A stretch of DNA of 64,000 nt from Rathayibacter sp. VKM Ac-2857 (GTDB lineage: Bacteria > Actinomycetota > Actinomycetes > Actinomycetales > Microbacteriaceae), in contig NZ_JABMLE010000002.1 in NCBI RefSeq assembly GCF_013205025.1, positions 248,001 to 312,000 of the forward strand. Reading direction: 5' to 3'. Shown here in pieces: positions 16,883-61,550 of the stretch; position 1 is the first letter of the stretch; the number at the start of each line of letters is the position of its first letter. Under the pieces are notes generated by a model. The model searched no databases, had not been told where the DNA came from, and saw nothing but the letters and a program-made list of their open reading frames with translations. Both the position numbers and the translations under genes were made by a program.

Positions 16883-17036
16883 TGCTGATCGAGCAGCCCC
16901 GCCTCTTGCTGGTCGAGCAGCCCCGCAGGGGCGTATCGAGCGGCGAAGCCGCTTCGCGTCTCGGTGGTGAGGGAAAGGACGCGCGGCGCTCCTTTTCATG
17001 CTGGTCGAGTAGCCCCGCAGGGGCGTATCGAGACCC
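16883..17036. repeat. Palindromic repeat cluster II (same-direction units)
   Basis: Units at about 16883-16902 (truncated), 16908-16940 and 16997-17036, all in the forward orientation. The complete unit carries the central stem CCCC-GCA-GGGG between TCGAGTAG and CGTATCGAGACC. Between the second and third units is a short palindromic filler (GCGGCGAAGCCGCTTCGC). Confidence 0.85.
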
Positions 17037-17050
17037 GCAGGCAGACGCCG

Positions 17051-18493
17051 TCAGGAGCGCTCGTCCAGCACGCGCCGCAGCCAGTCGAAGGAGGCCTTCG
17101 GCACGCGGTCGCGGCTGCGGGAGTCGAGCGCGACCAGCCCGTGCGGCCGGGTGTAGCCGTGCTGCCACTCGAAGGCGTCGACCAGCGTCCAGACCTGAAC
17201 GGCCTCCAGCGGCAGCCCCTCGTGCACGGCCTCCGCGAGCGCCCCGAGGTGCGCCCCCAGCCAGCGGATCCGCTCCGTGTCCACGATCGCCCCCTGCCGG
17301 TCCGGCAGGTCCGGGTAGCTCGCACCCAGCTCCGTCAGCACCAGCGGCGGCAGCGCATCGCCGTAGCGCTCCACGAGCCCGCGCAGGACCGCCACCGGCG
17401 CCCACGGCGCGAACGGCGAGCCGTCGCCGGTGCGGTCGAGCTCCGGCCACGGCCGGGTGTGGAACGGCAGCGCGGGAGGCGCACCCGGCCCGGTCGGCAG
17501 CGCCGGGTCGCGGCCCGCGGCGATCCGCTGCGGCGCGAGCGGCGCGACTCCGTAGAAATCGAGCGGCGCGCTGATGCGGGCGAGGTCGACCGGGTCGACG
17601 CCCGCGAGCGGCGCGAGGAACGGCGGCAGCTCCTCCGGCCCGGTTGGATAGGCGCCGGTGAGGACGGCGTCGGCGACGAGCCGGTTCTGCAGGACGTCGG
17701 CGAGCGCCGCCCAGGCGCCGTCCCGCTCCGACTCGCTCGCGGGCTCGACCACGGCCTGCGCGTCGACGAGGCCGATACGGCCGGCGAGGTCCGCCGAGCG
17801 GAGCGCCTCGACCGCGACGGCGTGCCCGAGCAGCTGATGGTGCAAAGCGGGCAGAGCGCTGAACAGCCGGCCGGCACCCGGCGCCTGGTTCTTCAGCGCG
17901 TAGCCCTCGAGGAAGACGGTCGACGGCTGATCGAGCGTGATCCAGTCCGCCACCCGGTCGCCGAGCCGCGAGCCGATCTCGAACGCGACGTCGCCGAAGC
18001 GGAAGGCGGTGTCGCGGTTCATCCAGCCGCCGCTGAGCGCGGAGGGGGTGTCGCGGTGCTGCAGGGTGAGCGCGATCCGCAGCCCGGCCCCGGCCAGCTC
18101 GTCGAGCAGGCGGTCGTAGAAGCCGAGGCCGCCGCGGTCGATCGGTCCGCGCCCGTCCGGCTGCAGCCGGGTCCAGGAGATCGAGAGCCGCAGCTCGTCG
18201 ACGCCGAGGTCGACCAGCAGCGCCAGATCCTCGCGCCAGCGCAGGACGAAGTCGGTGGCGAACTCGGGCGTCGCCTCCTCGGCGATCGTGCCGCGCCGCA
18301 GCGCGAAGTCGTCCCAGACGGAGCGCCCGCGCCCGCCGACCTCGAGCGAGCCCTCGGTCTGGAAGGCGCTCTGCGCGAGCCCGATCCGCAGACCCGCCGG
18401 CAGCAGCCGCCCCAGCTCTCGCGGATCGTCGAAGCGCGCGGTCTCGGCGCGCACCTGCTGCCGATCGCGTCCGCGCGCTGCGTCCTCGCTCAT
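17051..18493 (-). CDS. GH1-family glycoside hydrolase with Gln at the acid/base position
   Basis: 480 residues, full GH1 (beta-glucosidase) length. Subsite -1 residues are present: Q45 (SAFQTEG), H146 (LQHRDTP), Y314 region (DFYGV), and E442/W443 (FEWQHGY). The nucleophile E388 is in LTELG (consensus ITENG). The acid/base motif, usually TFNEP, is TLDQP (187-190): catalytic Glu is Q189 and the preceding Asn is D188. Plant myrosinases, which cleave thioglucosides, have the same Glu-to-Gln change. Candidate activities are thioglycosidase, transferase or an inactive binding protein. Strong GGAGGA site before ATG 18493. A LacI-type operator overlaps the promoter. Confidence 0.88.
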   Translation of the reverse strand: MSEDAARGRDRQQVRAETARFDDPRELGRLLPAGLRIGLAQSAFQTEGSLEVGGRGRSVWDDFALRRGTIAEEATPEFATDFVLRWREDLALLVDLGVDELRLSISWTRLQPDGRGPIDRGGLGFYDRLLDELAGAGLRIALTLQHRDTPSALSGGWMNRDTAFRFGDVAFEIGSRLGDRVADWITLDQPSTVFLEGYALKNQAPGAGRLFSALPALHHQLLGHAVAVEALRSADLAGRIGLVDAQAVVEPASESERDGAWAALADVLQNRLVADAVLTGAYPTGPEELPPFLAPLAGVDPVDLARISAPLDFYGVAPLAPQRIAAGRDPALPTGPGAPPALPFHTRPWPELDRTGDGSPFAPWAPVAVLRGLVERYGDALPPLVLTELGASYPDLPDRQGAIVDTERIRWLGAHLGALAEAVHEGLPLEAVQVWTLVDAFEWQHGYTRPHGLVALDSRSRDRVPKASFDWLRRVLDERS

Positions 18494-18517
18494 CTTTCCT
18501 CCGAGTCGTCGATGGGT

Positions 18518-18540
18518 ATATTGTCGCGGAAGCGCTCTCC
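18518..18540 (-). promoter_or_regulatory. Promoter and LacI-type operator of the GH1 gene
   Basis: The minus strand has AATATA (18518-18523) as a probable -10 and, just upstream, GGAGAGCGCTTCC (18528-18540), a near-palindrome around AGCGCT typical of LacI/CebR-family sugar repressors. No regulator gene lies adjacent, so the repressor would be encoded elsewhere. Confidence 0.6.
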
Positions 18541-18620
18541 CGCTCCGACCAGCCCCTCCGCCGCGGGGCGGACGAGGGTCCGCCCTCCGGTGTACATCCG
18601 GCAACGGAGGCGCGCCGCGC

Positions 18621-18649
18621 TTGACACTGCCCGCGCGCCCCCGTGCAAT
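18621..18649 (+). promoter_or_regulatory. Promoter of the Ig-like membrane protein gene
   Basis: Perfect -35 TTGACA at 18621-18626, 17-nt spacer, -10 TGCAAT at 18644-18649. The GTG at 18659 is 9 nt downstream of the -10, so the mRNA would be leaderless or nearly so. Confidence 0.55.
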
Positions 18650-18658
18650 GGACGCACC

Positions 18659-20884
18659 GTGATTCCGAGTGTCGCCGCGTCTGTTCCGGGGGGTTCCGCG
18701 ACGAGGGGTCCGTCGGTCGCCCCGACGAGTCGCCTTCGCCGCTCCCCCCGTTCGTCGCGCCGCCGTCCGGCCGCCCTCCTGCTCGTGCTGCTCGTCGCAC
18801 TGGGCGCCGCCGCCGGCCTGACCGCGCCGAGCGCGCAGGCCGCCGCGCCGCTCACGATCACCTCCCCCGCCTCCGGCGCCGTGCTGCCGAGCGGCGCGGT
18901 CACCGCGACCGGCACCGGCACCGCGGGCGACCAGATCCAGATCGGCCTCACCGGCAGCAGCGAGCCGCTCTGCATCACCACCGTCGGCGCCGACGACACC
19001 TGGAGCTGCCTGCTCGACCTCGACGACGGCCGGATCCGCCTCACCGCCGTCGAGCTCCTCGCCGCCGGCGGCACCACCTCGGCCCGCGTCGAGGTCGCCG
19101 TCCTCAGCGCCCCCGTCATCGAGTCGGTCGACGGCTCGGCCACCTCGGCCGGATCGGTGAGCGGCAGCGCCTACCCGGGAGCGAGCGTCGCGGTCACGAC
19201 CGACGGCGGCGCCTCCTGCCTCGCCACCGCCGACGGCGCCGGCCGCTGGTTCTGCCAGCTCGCGCCCACGCCGGCACCCGGGAGCTACCGCGTCACCGCC
19301 ACCCAGTCGGCCTCCTTCGCCGGAAGCACCGTCTCGCCCGCCAGCGCGGCCGTCTCGCTCGTCGTCGACACCGCCGCGCCGGTCGCCCCCGTCCTCGCCT
19401 CCCCCGGCCCGGGTGCCGCGCTGCCGCTCACCGGAGCCGTCTACTCCGGTACGGCCACCGAGGGCACGCGGGTCTACGTCTACGTCGACCTCGTCAACAC
19501 CTGCGACGCGCCGATCACCGGCGGCGCCTGGAGCTGCACCGGCGGCACGGTGACGGCCGGAGCGCACCGCGTCTCGGCGATCGCCGGCGACGCGGCCGGC
19601 AACTACAGCTCGCGCAGCCCCTGGATCGACGCGACCTTCACTGCGGCGAACACGACACCGTCCGCCTCCCCGTCCGCGACCGCCCCCGGCACGAGCACGG
19701 CGACCCCCGGCGGCGGCACGCCCACCGCCGCGCCCGGCTCGCCGACCGCTCGGCCGACGACGCCCGGGAGCTCTGCGACGCCCTCGCCGACGCGCCCGGG
19801 TCAGACCGCACCCGCACCCGAGGCGACCCCCTCCGACGGCGCCAGCGCCGCGCCGGCGCCGGGAGCCGCTCCGAGCGACCCGCCACCGGCCGCGCCCACC
19901 CCCGCCGACGGCGGATCGGCGCCCGGCGGCTGGAGCGCCGCCACCGGGATGACCACCGCGCTCTCCTCCGGCGCCCCCCTGGGCACCATGGCCGACTGGA
20001 TGCGCTCGCTCGCCCTGGCGATCGCCTCCCTCGCCCTGCTCGTCGTCCCCGCCCGCCTCGCCGTCGCCGGCCGCGTGCCGCGCGAGGCGCGCACCTGGCG
20101 CCTGACCGGCCGCAACCGCGCGAGCGTGGAGTACGACGACCGGCCCGAGCCCGCGCCGGTGTCGGCGCGGACCATGGTGGTCGGCATGATCGGCTGCGCC
20201 GCCGGACTCGTGCTGCTCTCGGGCCGGGTCGACGGGCAGCCCGCCTACCTCCGCCTGCTGATCGCGGTGATCGTCGCGGTCGCCCTGGTGAACGCCGTCG
20301 CCGCGGGTGTCCCCGCGCTGGTCGGGCGCCGCCTCGGCCTGCCGGGCATCCGCGTGGTGGCCTCACCCCGCGCACTGCTGCTGGTGGCCGGCGCCGCGCT
20401 CCTGTCCCGCTTCGCGGGCCTCGACCCGGCCTTCCTCTTCGGAGTGGTGATCGGCCTCGTCCTGCCCGAGGGCGCCTCAGCCGTCGCGCGCGCCCAGCTC
20501 GCGACGGTGCGCGTCGTGTCCCTGCTCGGCCTCGCCGCTGTGGCCTGGGGCGCCTCCGCGGCCGTCCCCGCCGACGGCTCGTTCGCCGCCGTCCTCACCG
20601 CCGAGGTGCTCAGCGCGACGACGCTGCTCTCGGTCGGCTCGAGCGTCGTGCTGCTCTTCCCGGTCGGCCGACCCGCGGGGCAGAGCATCCTGCGCTGGTC
20701 CCCCGTGCTCTGGCTCGGGCTGACGCTGCTGGCGACCACGGTGCTGTTCCTGCTGCTCACGCCGACGATCGCCGCCTGGGCGACCGACGGCGGAGCCGGG
20801 CCGGCGCTCTTCGCGGTCGTGGCGTTCACCGCCGTCTGCACGTCGATCTGGGCCTGGCGGCGCTTCGTCGACGTCGGCGAGTAG
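18659..20884 (+). CDS. Secreted Ig-like repeat protein with Pro/Thr-rich linker and C-terminal membrane domain
   Basis: 741 residues, not assigned to a named family. The N-terminus is Arg-rich, then a hydrophobic core (about 39-55) and AQA-AAP near 60-63, a signal peptide. Residues about 65-330 form three bacterial Ig-like modules with repeated patterns (SPASGAVLPSG, SGSAYPGASV, SPGPGAALPLTG) and Cys pairs. Residues about 330-440 are a Ser/Thr/Pro/Ala linker of cell-wall-spanning type. About six transmembrane helices follow to the C-terminus. The layout is an exposed sensor or adhesin on a membrane base. The GTG at 18659 is supported by TTGACA/TGCAAT just upstream. Confidence 0.75.
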   Translation: MIPSVAASVPGGSATRGPSVAPTSRLRRSPRSSRRRPAALLLVLLVALGAAAGLTAPSAQAAAPLTITSPASGAVLPSGAVTATGTGTAGDQIQIGLTGSSEPLCITTVGADDTWSCLLDLDDGRIRLTAVELLAAGGTTSARVEVAVLSAPVIESVDGSATSAGSVSGSAYPGASVAVTTDGGASCLATADGAGRWFCQLAPTPAPGSYRVTATQSASFAGSTVSPASAAVSLVVDTAAPVAPVLASPGPGAALPLTGAVYSGTATEGTRVYVYVDLVNTCDAPITGGAWSCTGGTVTAGAHRVSAIAGDAAGNYSSRSPWIDATFTAANTTPSASPSATAPGTSTATPGGGTPTAAPGSPTARPTTPGSSATPSPTRPGQTAPAPEATPSDGASAAPAPGAAPSDPPPAAPTPADGGSAPGGWSAATGMTTALSSGAPLGTMADWMRSLALAIASLALLVVPARLAVAGRVPREARTWRLTGRNRASVEYDDRPEPAPVSARTMVVGMIGCAAGLVLLSGRVDGQPAYLRLLIAVIVAVALVNAVAAGVPALVGRRLGLPGIRVVASPRALLLVAGAALLSRFAGLDPAFLFGVVIGLVLPEGASAVARAQLATVRVVSLLGLAAVAWGASAAVPADGSFAAVLTAEVLSATTLLSVGSSVVLLFPVGRPAGQSILRWSPVLWLGLTLLATTVLFLLLTPTIAAWATDGGAGPALFAVVAFTAVCTSIWAWRRFVDVGE

Positions 20885-35156: not shown

Positions 35157-35353
35157 TGCTGATCGAGTAGCCCGCGCAGCGGGCGTATCGAGATCCACCG
35201 TTCCGGAGACCTGGGGTCTCGATACGCCGCTCCGCGGCTACTCGACCAGCATGAAAGGCCGTACGCGCGTCCAGCCGCACGTGCTCCCTGCTGGCCGAGC
35301 GGCCCGCGACTCATGTTGATCGAGTAGGCCGCGGAGCGGGCGTATCGAGATCC
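35157..35353. repeat. Palindromic repeat cluster III
   Basis: Forward unit about 35157-35200 with central stem CCCGC-GCA-GCGGG, reverse unit about 35215-35253, a partial forward unit about 35288-35308, and a forward unit about 35312-35353. The first two form an inverted pair able to fold into a long stem. It lies between the convergent ABC-2 permease and mazG genes. Confidence 0.85.
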
Positions 35354-42165: not shown

Positions 42166-42530
42166 GTGGGTCTCGATACGCCCCTCTGGGGCTACTCGAC
42201 CAGCATGAGCGGCAAGCATGCTGATCGAGTAGGGCGCGCAGCGGCCCTATCGAGCGGAGGGGGCGCCTTCGGCGCCAGCGCAGGGCGGGGAAGAGACCGA
42301 TGTCCTTGCGGTGGTGGGTCTCGATACGCCCCTGCGGGGCTACTCGACCAGCATGTTCTGCGGGCGTCTCTTCCAAGTAGATCCACCGTCCTCAGGTCGG
42401 CGGGTCTCGATACGCCCCTCCGGGCTACTCGACCAGCATGGACTGCACGCCCCTCGCGAGGTCGCGCCAGCCGCAGCATGCTGGGCGAGGAGGCCGCGCA
42501 GCGTCCGTCTCGGGATACGCCGCTACGGGG
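42166..42530. repeat. Palindromic repeat cluster IV
   Basis: Reverse units about 42166-42207, 42312-42355 and 42399-42440, forward units about 42216-42255 and a degenerate one about 42476-42530, whose end overlaps the last codons of pth. Central stems include CCCC-GCA-GGGG type and a GGGCGC-GCA-GCGGCC form. It fills the 418-nt gap between the hypothetical gene and pth. Confidence 0.87.
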
Positions 42531-48528: not shown

Positions 48529-48571
48529 GGTGGGTCTCGATACGCCCCTGCGGGGCTACTCGACCAGCATG
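48529..48571. repeat. Palindromic repeat unit V (single reverse unit)
   Basis: One full reverse unit, GGTGGGTCTCGATACG ... CTACTCGACCAGCATG with central CCCC-TGC-GGGG, inside the sugar operon between the permease and glucosidase genes. Confidence 0.85.
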
Positions 48572-54423: not shown

Positions 54424-54584
54424 TGCTGATCGAGTAGCCCGCGCAGCGGGCGTATCGAGATCCACCACCGTCAGACGTCGAGGTCTGCAGACCCGCCCTG
54501 CTGACAACGGCGGGTCTCGATACGCCGCTCCGCGGCTACTCGACCACCATGGACTCGCCGCTCCACGGCTACTCGACCAGCATG
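54424..54584. repeat. Palindromic repeat cluster VI
   Basis: Forward unit about 54424-54467 (central CCCGC-GCA-GCGGG), reverse unit about 54509-54550 and a partial reverse unit about 54551-54584. The first two form an inverted pair separated by CAGACCCGCCCTGCTGAC-like spacer. It lies between the APC-like and prs genes. Confidence 0.87.
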
Positions 54585-61314: not shown

Positions 61315-61550
61315 CATGCTGATCGAGCAGCCCTCGCAGAGGGCGTAACGAGATCCAGCGTGTTCAGCAGGGCGGGTCGCGATACGCCGCTGCGCGGCTA
61401 CTCGACCAGCATGCGGGGGCCGCTGCGCGCGGGCAGGCCGACCGCCCGGCCCATGCTGATCGAGTAGCCCTCGCAGAGGGCGTATCGAGATCCACCGTCT
61501 CCAGCAGGGCGGGTCTCGATACGCCGCTGCGCGGCTACTCGACCAGCATG
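61315..61550. repeat. Palindromic repeat cluster VII (two inverted pairs)
   Basis: Forward/reverse pairs at about 61315-61358/61373-61413 and 61452-61495/61511-61550. The forward central stems are CCCTC-GCA-GAGGG, the reverse ones CGC-TGC-GCG type. Each pair can fold into a stem of more than 30 bp. It accounts for the 330-nt gap before ispE. Confidence 0.9.

Follow-up and report, generated by a model that had tools for sequence, protein, structure and literature searches.

Among the described systems closest to the element studied here, a small single-domain GIY-YIG protein of Neisseria, Ssn, was reportedly found by Chenal, Veyrier and others in 2025 to cut the genome-wide NTS repeats in single-stranded form, and the Ssn/NTS pair is said to modulate transformation. 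Palindromic repeats tagged with GTAG or CGTC have already been described (Di Nocera et al., 2013; PMC3733652). In the GTAG repetitive extragenic palindromes (REPs) and the REPtrons with RAYT, the gene of an enzyme that processes single strands has inverted arrays of hairpins around it, the repeat type follows the enzyme clade, and GTAG stands at the stem foot (PMC6006769; PMC3733652). The 2013 survey identifies dRS3 of Neisseria with the CGTC-1 REPs, sees no association between CGTC repeats and transposase genes, and describes palindromic repeats that "lack a dedicated transposase" (PMC3733652). Here we describe a dispersed palindromic repeat found in the window, by which we mean the whole 64-kb stretch of Rathayibacter sp. 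VKM Ac-2857 DNA that was analyzed (contig NZ_JABMLE010000002.1, positions 248,001 to 312,000).

Comparison of the copies and their neighboring genes suggests that this repeat is a REP-like DNA hairpin and that a small single-domain GIY-YIG endonuclease probably recognizes it. It resembles the GTAG systems in all the respects named above, whereas its linked enzyme is a GIY-YIG protein and not Y1/HuH. With the CGTC REPs it shares short, dispersed, covarying palindromes, mostly in inverted pairs, in several phyla and with no Y1 link (PMC3733652), and in many of its Bacteroidota copies CGTCA or TGTCA directly precedes the outer stem. Scanning named genomes gave at least 115 loci, and all cross-phylum counts in this text are among the matches listed. 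CGTC REPs carry CGTC (or TGTC/CCTC) as a tag at one end; exact CGTC precedes 17 of the 115 and the looser YG[TCG][CT] 89. The differences are that the constant part of the window-type repeat is an internal-loop core between two helices, that CGTC REPs have stems of 8-9 bp and loops of 4-5 bases whereas most inner stems in the window's genome measure 4-6 bp and close on a loop of 3 bases, and that the survey gives CGTC REPs no partner gene (PMC3733652), whereas a GIY-YIG gene is linked here.

The first-pass annotation of this DNA, made from its letters alone, knew of no description for the family. This stands for the repeat sequence itself, as a limited literature search found no description of it, nor of a GIY-YIG link to such palindromes; to our knowledge, neither this recognition sequence, nor the pair of covarying helices, nor the seven-phylum spread has been described. 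It does not stand for GTAG- and CGTC-tagged palindromes as a class (PMC3733652).

Structure, covariation and spread of the repeat

The repeat pattern was set as TCGAGTAG-N5..30-CGTATCGAGA, and the window was scored against 100 dinucleotide shuffles. There were 16 exact matches in the window and 0 in the shuffles; with up to two mismatches allowed there were 21 copies, in the same seven clusters from which about twenty had been reported at first pass. The accompanying statement that all copies are intergenic holds for 20/21, since the copy at 17005 lies within the called open reading frame (ORF) 16964-20884, perhaps because the start of this ORF was placed too far upstream. In 16/16 exact copies TCGAGTAG stands immediately 5' of the stem, with GTAG at the hairpin foot. 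An Rfam search of the window returned two tRNAs only.

Common to the copies is a constant core, TCGA-GTA-G ... C-GTA-TCGA-GA, with one helix outside it and another inside. When one copy is folded as single-stranded DNA (ssDNA), its TCGA/TCGA helix leads into a symmetric internal loop of GTA/GTA, and the inner stem that follows ends in a short loop. Lone copies fold only modestly better than shuffles (ssDNA z -1.1 to -1.5); the copy at 61460-61490, with this same helix, internal loop and inner stem, has a z of only -1.4 for its 46-base stretch. The inverted pair at 61452-61550 forms one long ssDNA hairpin of -40.4 kcal/mol (z -8.5), and 0/200 shuffles were as good. A second helix of two pairs flanks TCGA...TCGAGA and occurs as GG/CC, GA/TC, CT/AG, GT/AC and CA/TG. 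The first-pass anatomy had the inner stem right and left the outer helix and the constant internal-loop core unmentioned.

For covariation across phyla we took one copy from each of the 115 listed loci and compared pairing with shuffles, which ignore relatedness. Inner pairs 2-6 were Watson-Crick in 108/115, 83/106, 77/105, 77/99 and 53/80 (shuffled means 52, 37, 39, 32 and 26), outer pair 1 in 109/115 (shuffled 54) and outer pair 2 in 107/115 (shuffled 74), with p = 0.0002 each for inner pairs 2 and 5 and for outer pairs 1 and 2. The exceptions at inner pairs numbered 107, and 55 of these were G.A or A.G. Among 43 distinct inserts of the window's genome, pairing exceeded that in shuffles with p = 0.0002 for pairs 3, 4 and 5 and for outer pair 1, and with p = 0.002 for pair 2; neither pair 6 (p = 0.08) nor outer pair 2, which is invariant, was informative. 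Fully paired copies made up 111/127 of those in a 444-kb sample of this genome, and 14/16 exact copies in the window (loop of up to 5), where copies 2679 and 35320 have one mismatch each. Pairing is thus far from being broken as often as it is kept. The proposal that the center changes while complementarity is preserved was largely borne out within the genome and among the cross-phylum loci, and pairing so far above shuffles also supports the suggested selection on the hairpin itself.

Counting its constant G-C pair, the inner stem measures 4-6 bp in 100/113 copies of the window's genome and in 86/168 cross-phylum copies; 48/168 of the latter have just 2 bp before a mismatch. The loop is mostly 3 bases in the window's genome and longer and mixed in others. 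GNA triloops were found in 97/105 copies of the genome sample, in 19/26 distinct inserts and in 25/30 among the cross-phylum loci listed. When closed by a C-G pair, as C(GNA)G, such loops have unusually high stability as DNA.

The genome of the window (4.6 Mb in 8 contigs) contains 563 forward and 560 reverse exact copies, 1,123 together, and a reversed-pattern control gave 0 matches. The REP-like or BIME-like (bacterial interspersed mosaic element) character seen at first pass agrees with the arrangement in the sample, where 73 of 85 close neighbors are inverted (42 +-, 31 -+) and 12 direct; 34/42 clusters there hold 2-5 copies. A crude gene call on 284 kb put 42/57 copies between genes and 15/57 in called ORFs, many of which are tiny or low-scoring or have the copy at their edge.

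Beyond this genome, exact copies occur in 64/249 Microbacteriaceae genomes and 31/85 genera. The reversed-pattern control matched twice in the 249 (G042, G195), so a few of the single-copy family genomes may be chance. The listed loci reach further than the Microbacteriaceae frame implied at first pass, and the repeat is in no way restricted to the window locus: at least 60 are from Actinomycetota, 21 from Chloroflexota, 18 from Bacteroidota, 8 from Pseudomonadota, 2 from Calditrichota, 1 from Fibrobacterota and 1 from a Peribacteria metagenome-assembled genome (MAG), with at least 4 lacking a phylum, giving records of at least seven phyla. Many of these records are MAG contigs, with names as deposited. 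At equal base use, chance alone would give about 194 exact matches in the whole 257-Gb collection, so lone hits prove little and pairing is taken as the mark of real members. All three tested pairs (outer 1, outer 2 and inner 2) are kept in 98/115 listed loci: Actinomycetota 53/60, Chloroflexota 19/21, Bacteroidota 16/18, Pseudomonadota 4/8, Calditrichota 2/2, Fibrobacterota 1/1, Peribacteria MAG 0/1 and those without phylum 3/4. L061, L078 and L135 keep one or none of the three, and L061 and L078 look like chance. A plasmid search with the 99-base unit gave no match at E 1e-5, and viral contigs gave 24 matching stretches, a number that chance might give, with no sign of phages as main carriers.

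A small GIY-YIG gene linked to the repeat

Clustering of ORFs near the repeats at the 115 listed loci gave a three-locus cluster of short proteins, and the two that were scanned are GIY-YIG (PF01541); this choice was not blind, as GIY-YIG had been considered beforehand and many clusters of longer ORFs were left aside. The linked protein is a single domain of roughly 90-110 residues. In 15 aligned rows the GIY-YIG residues Y5, Y15, G17, R25, H29 and E62 are invariant, and proteins with the catalytic residues present occur in repeat-bearing relatives. The solved structures nearest to one linked nuclease are UPF0213 GIY-YIG proteins in entries named "hypothetical" (PDB 1ywl, E 1e-20; 1zg2, E 1.5e-19), the comparison being by protein only. 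A defence library search with two of the nuclease proteins gave no match.

One linked nuclease, searched in the 249 family genomes, matched in 58. Repeat and gene occurred together in 41 genomes, the repeat alone in 23, the gene alone in 17 and neither in 168 (odds ratio 17.6, p = 2.4e-17), and the association held by genus (23 with both, 8 with the repeat only, 9 with the gene only, 45 with neither; p = 3e-7). Where the TCGAGTA repeat is present, the gene usually lies 5-150 bp away with the repeat on one or both sides. At five loci (L153, L155, L157, L160, L161) the repeat overlaps the gene end and the protein ends in ...VE, as TCGAGTAG overlapping the gene end would encode. With one mismatch allowed, 16/30 family loci selected by score (L150-L179) had a repeat within 500 bp of the gene, as did 27/52 loci of the protein tree, 7 of which (L056, L060, L180-L184) had been chosen for nearby repeats or kinship. 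The upstream flank strongly matched the downstream one in inverted orientation at 33/52 gene loci vs 0/100 control places, and 19/25 gene loci without the TCGAGTA repeat still passed this test. On the protein tree the repeat type changes 10 times against a shuffled mean of 17.6 (0/500 as low), although the resolution of this tree is poor and close relatives group together in any case.

Across phyla, 39/40 genomes picked for holding the repeat have a small GIY-YIG match. A repeat lay within 450 bp at 22/30 fetched small GIY-YIG loci from at least seven phyla, with shorter loci L285, L286 and L307 scored negative at doubtful coordinates, vs 2/200 control places, which came from loci of the same 40 genomes away from the bait repeat; where the bait was not avoided the control figure was 28/200.

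Weighing the explanations

Should the repeat be the site of this nuclease, the GIY-YIG enzyme would read the core on a folded single strand, such as arises in replication, transformation or transfer, and may nick the folded strand there. Nick and repair could in turn help copies to multiply, to move within clusters and to resolve. With a fixed core read by the nuclease, the stems on either side may change as long as they stay paired. The first-pass suggestion of a nuclease or transposase that reads the structure would survive in its first half, as there is a linked nuclease gene, small and of the GIY-YIG kind, and no Y1 transposase was found in the window's genome or in the repeat-positive family genomes. 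With less assurance, we lean towards a wider picture, a second REP system independent of Y1, in which one GIY-YIG lineage would read a fixed TCGA-GTA/GTA-TCGA-GA core in folded ssDNA, with stems free while paired. The same code would be used in Actinomycetota, Chloroflexota, Bacteroidota, sphingomonads, Fibrobacterota, Calditrichota and a Peribacteria MAG. Each of the other GIY-YIG clades would have a related hairpin of its own.

Several points count against the nuclease reading. The genome with the most copies, that of the window, has no detectable gene, and a profile search of the 23 family genomes with the repeat alone gives nothing beyond a partial match in G168 and weak ones in G136 and G172 (E about 0.002, frames of 375 and 641 residues); because repeat-only genomes exist, the gene is not needed for keeping repeats. 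Conversely, the 17 gene-only family genomes have no repeat of the TCGAGTA type. The control places for the inverted-flank and cross-phylum linkage tests were taken from cross-phylum loci, not from family genomes. The 39/40 figure comes without its own base rate, and in some groups such genes may simply be frequent; some of the 22 linked loci are weak matches (L299; TCGAGTG forms). Movement was not caught: shared cluster sites with different copy numbers are also explained by local duplication or deletion.

GTAG directly 5' of the inner stem and inverted units, as the survey gives for GTAG REPs (PMC3733652), could mark the foot of a canonical REP whose movement depends on a Y1 transposase (TnpA-REP) since lost or supplied from elsewhere. 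Such an origin is highly improbable. The first-pass annotation had pointed to a Y1-type (RAYT/TnpA-REP) partner, which we reject: a Y1_Tnp (PF01797) search of the window's genome gave no match, and the domain was found in only 2/249 family genomes, both with 0 repeats, and thus in 0/64 repeat-positive ones. Moreover, GTAG belongs to a longer constant core that includes CGTATCGAGA on the opposite side. We regard it as a false friend, because, for all its likeness to a RAYT foot, the gene linked to the repeat is of a different kind. A role mainly as RNA, with the repeats as bidirectional terminators or mRNA-stabilizing hairpins at gene ends and the nuclease link secondary, would suit copies that are mostly intergenic and, per base, densest in convergent gaps (16 in 6.5 kb, against 20 in 16.3 kb of tandem and 6 in 7.1 kb of divergent gaps), and single copies do fold as RNA too. 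It is nonetheless improbable, for no T run follows the stem, where CGTATCGAGA comes next (as read from the matched sequences, without a terminator scan); the constant sequence on both flanks exceeds what a terminator needs; and neither the linkage to a nuclease gene across phyla nor the GNA loops of 97/105 triloop copies in the window's genome, given their stability in DNA, is what an RNA role would predict.

There is a small chance that the repeats are instead a self-mark, the genome being seeded with nuclease sites through which the enzyme tunes how incoming single strands are taken up or recombined, as is reported for Neisseria Ssn/NTS. A small single-domain GIY-YIG protein and a genome-wide repeated site are common to both systems, and the idea suits a nuclease of ssDNA whose sites on the chromosome are so numerous. 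Unlike what is said of Neisseria, however, the window's genome keeps more than 1,000 sites with no enzyme gene found.

Under the favored reading, that of a GIY-YIG recognition site, the analysis gives one large cross-phylum family an enzyme-site pair that can be put to the test, and the many natural variants of the site show which positions are constant and which are free. In apparent orphan genomes more than 1,000 sites would outlast the enzyme, which would make the upkeep of sites separable from enzyme action. If cleavage is true, nuclease-site pairs could supply structure-specific single-strand nucleases for use as tools. The finding may also bear on palindromic repeats without a Y1 transposase, which apparently had no enzyme in the 2013 survey (PMC3733652).

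Gene turnover, cluster sites and related hairpins

The gene matched at E<1e-30 in 5 of 15 genomes of the genus, all with repeats (652, 420, 325, 151 and 17). Six genomes have repeats only (1123, 349, 255, 119, 57 and 8), and the 4 without repeats have at most weak gene matches (E 0.006 or more). The window's genome gave no match at E<=10 to the GIY-YIG protein of a congener, with a gap between contigs remaining a possible place for it, and none at E<=0.01 to the 15-row profile; its PF01541 matches are confined to frames 681 and 612 residues long. It looks like an orphan, with repeats and no detectable gene. At the site where G116 and G252 have the gene between repeats, it instead has Abi_2 (PF07751) and no repeats (L233, G000:C3:720400-722500). 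The site holds one worn copy in G254, 29 bp in G253, a decayed half in G250 and, in G045, several repeats along with other sequence; in G253 and G045 the gene is at another shared site about 20 kb away. By this comparison of congeners, which does not tell insertion from loss, the gene occupies different places and is often missing, and it seems to be easily lost while repeats remain. A second, broken GIY-YIG copy lies beside repeats at L240 (G253:C1:3334400-3336700), with an intact copy elsewhere in that genome, which suggests gene duplication and decay.

Table 1. Repeat copies and clusters in the window (positions in the 64-kb stretch).
Feature	Position	Strand	Basis
Cluster, 5 copies (2342+, 2411-, 2496+, 2565-, 2679+)	2342-2707	mixed	pattern matches
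Cluster, 2 copies (16913, 17005)	16913-17033	+	pattern matches
Cluster, 3 copies (35163+, 35217-, 35320+)	35163-35350	mixed	pattern matches
Cluster, 4 copies (42171-, 42225+, 42319-, 42405-)	42171-42432	mixed	pattern matches
Single copy	48535-48563	-	pattern matches
Copy pair (54430+, 54515-)	54430-54543	mixed	pattern matches
Cluster, 4 copies (61323+, 61377-, 61460+, 61514-)	61323-61542	mixed	pattern matches
Copy, core with 2 mismatches	61323-61353	+	mismatch-tolerant pattern match
Copy, core with 1 mismatch	61377-61405	-	mismatch-tolerant pattern match
Copy, stem CCCTC-GCA-GAGGG	61460-61490	+	exact match
Copy, stem CCGC-GCA-GCGG	61514-61542	-	exact match
Best complete unit, two inverted copies, ends CATGCTG...CAGCATG	61452-61550	no strand	long single hairpin

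Three of four window clusters could be compared with congeners, the fourth having one flank without a match, and showed shared intergenic sites with differing copy numbers. The site of cluster 35163-35350 has 2-4 relaxed matches in three congeners; G254 has the same site and stem for copy 48535-48563, and also a + / - pair at the site of 54430-54543. Elsewhere in the genome, four copies stand in a tandem array of period 187-188 bp (G000:C1:87119-87710, L003-L006). The wider flank CATGCTGRTCGAG is common to this genome and a Rathayibacter record (L067).

Other hairpins were seen by eye at related nuclease genes. A family of CTGAGCCTGTCGAAGGG and its variants flanks small GIY-YIG genes in L166, L171, L172, L187, L188 and L189, all from family genomes. 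In other clades GGTCGAGGAG...GTCACGAGACC flanks such genes in L159, L165 and L173, and CTGGTTGAGGA...TCTCGAAACCAG the one in L178; CTGAGC...GTCGAAGG is also a nuclease-flanking type, as against the TCGAGTA type. GIY-YIG clades thus seem to have their own hairpins. A near variant of the window-type repeat, TTGAGTAG...GTATCGAAACC, flanks GIY-YIG genes in L156, L175 and L199, the repeat core itself drifting in these lineages. Within the genus, G256, with only 17 repeats, has a 57% identical GIY-YIG protein whose gene is flanked by a different hairpin, GGTTGAGCCTGCCGAAACC (L241), a possible change of specificity inside one genus.
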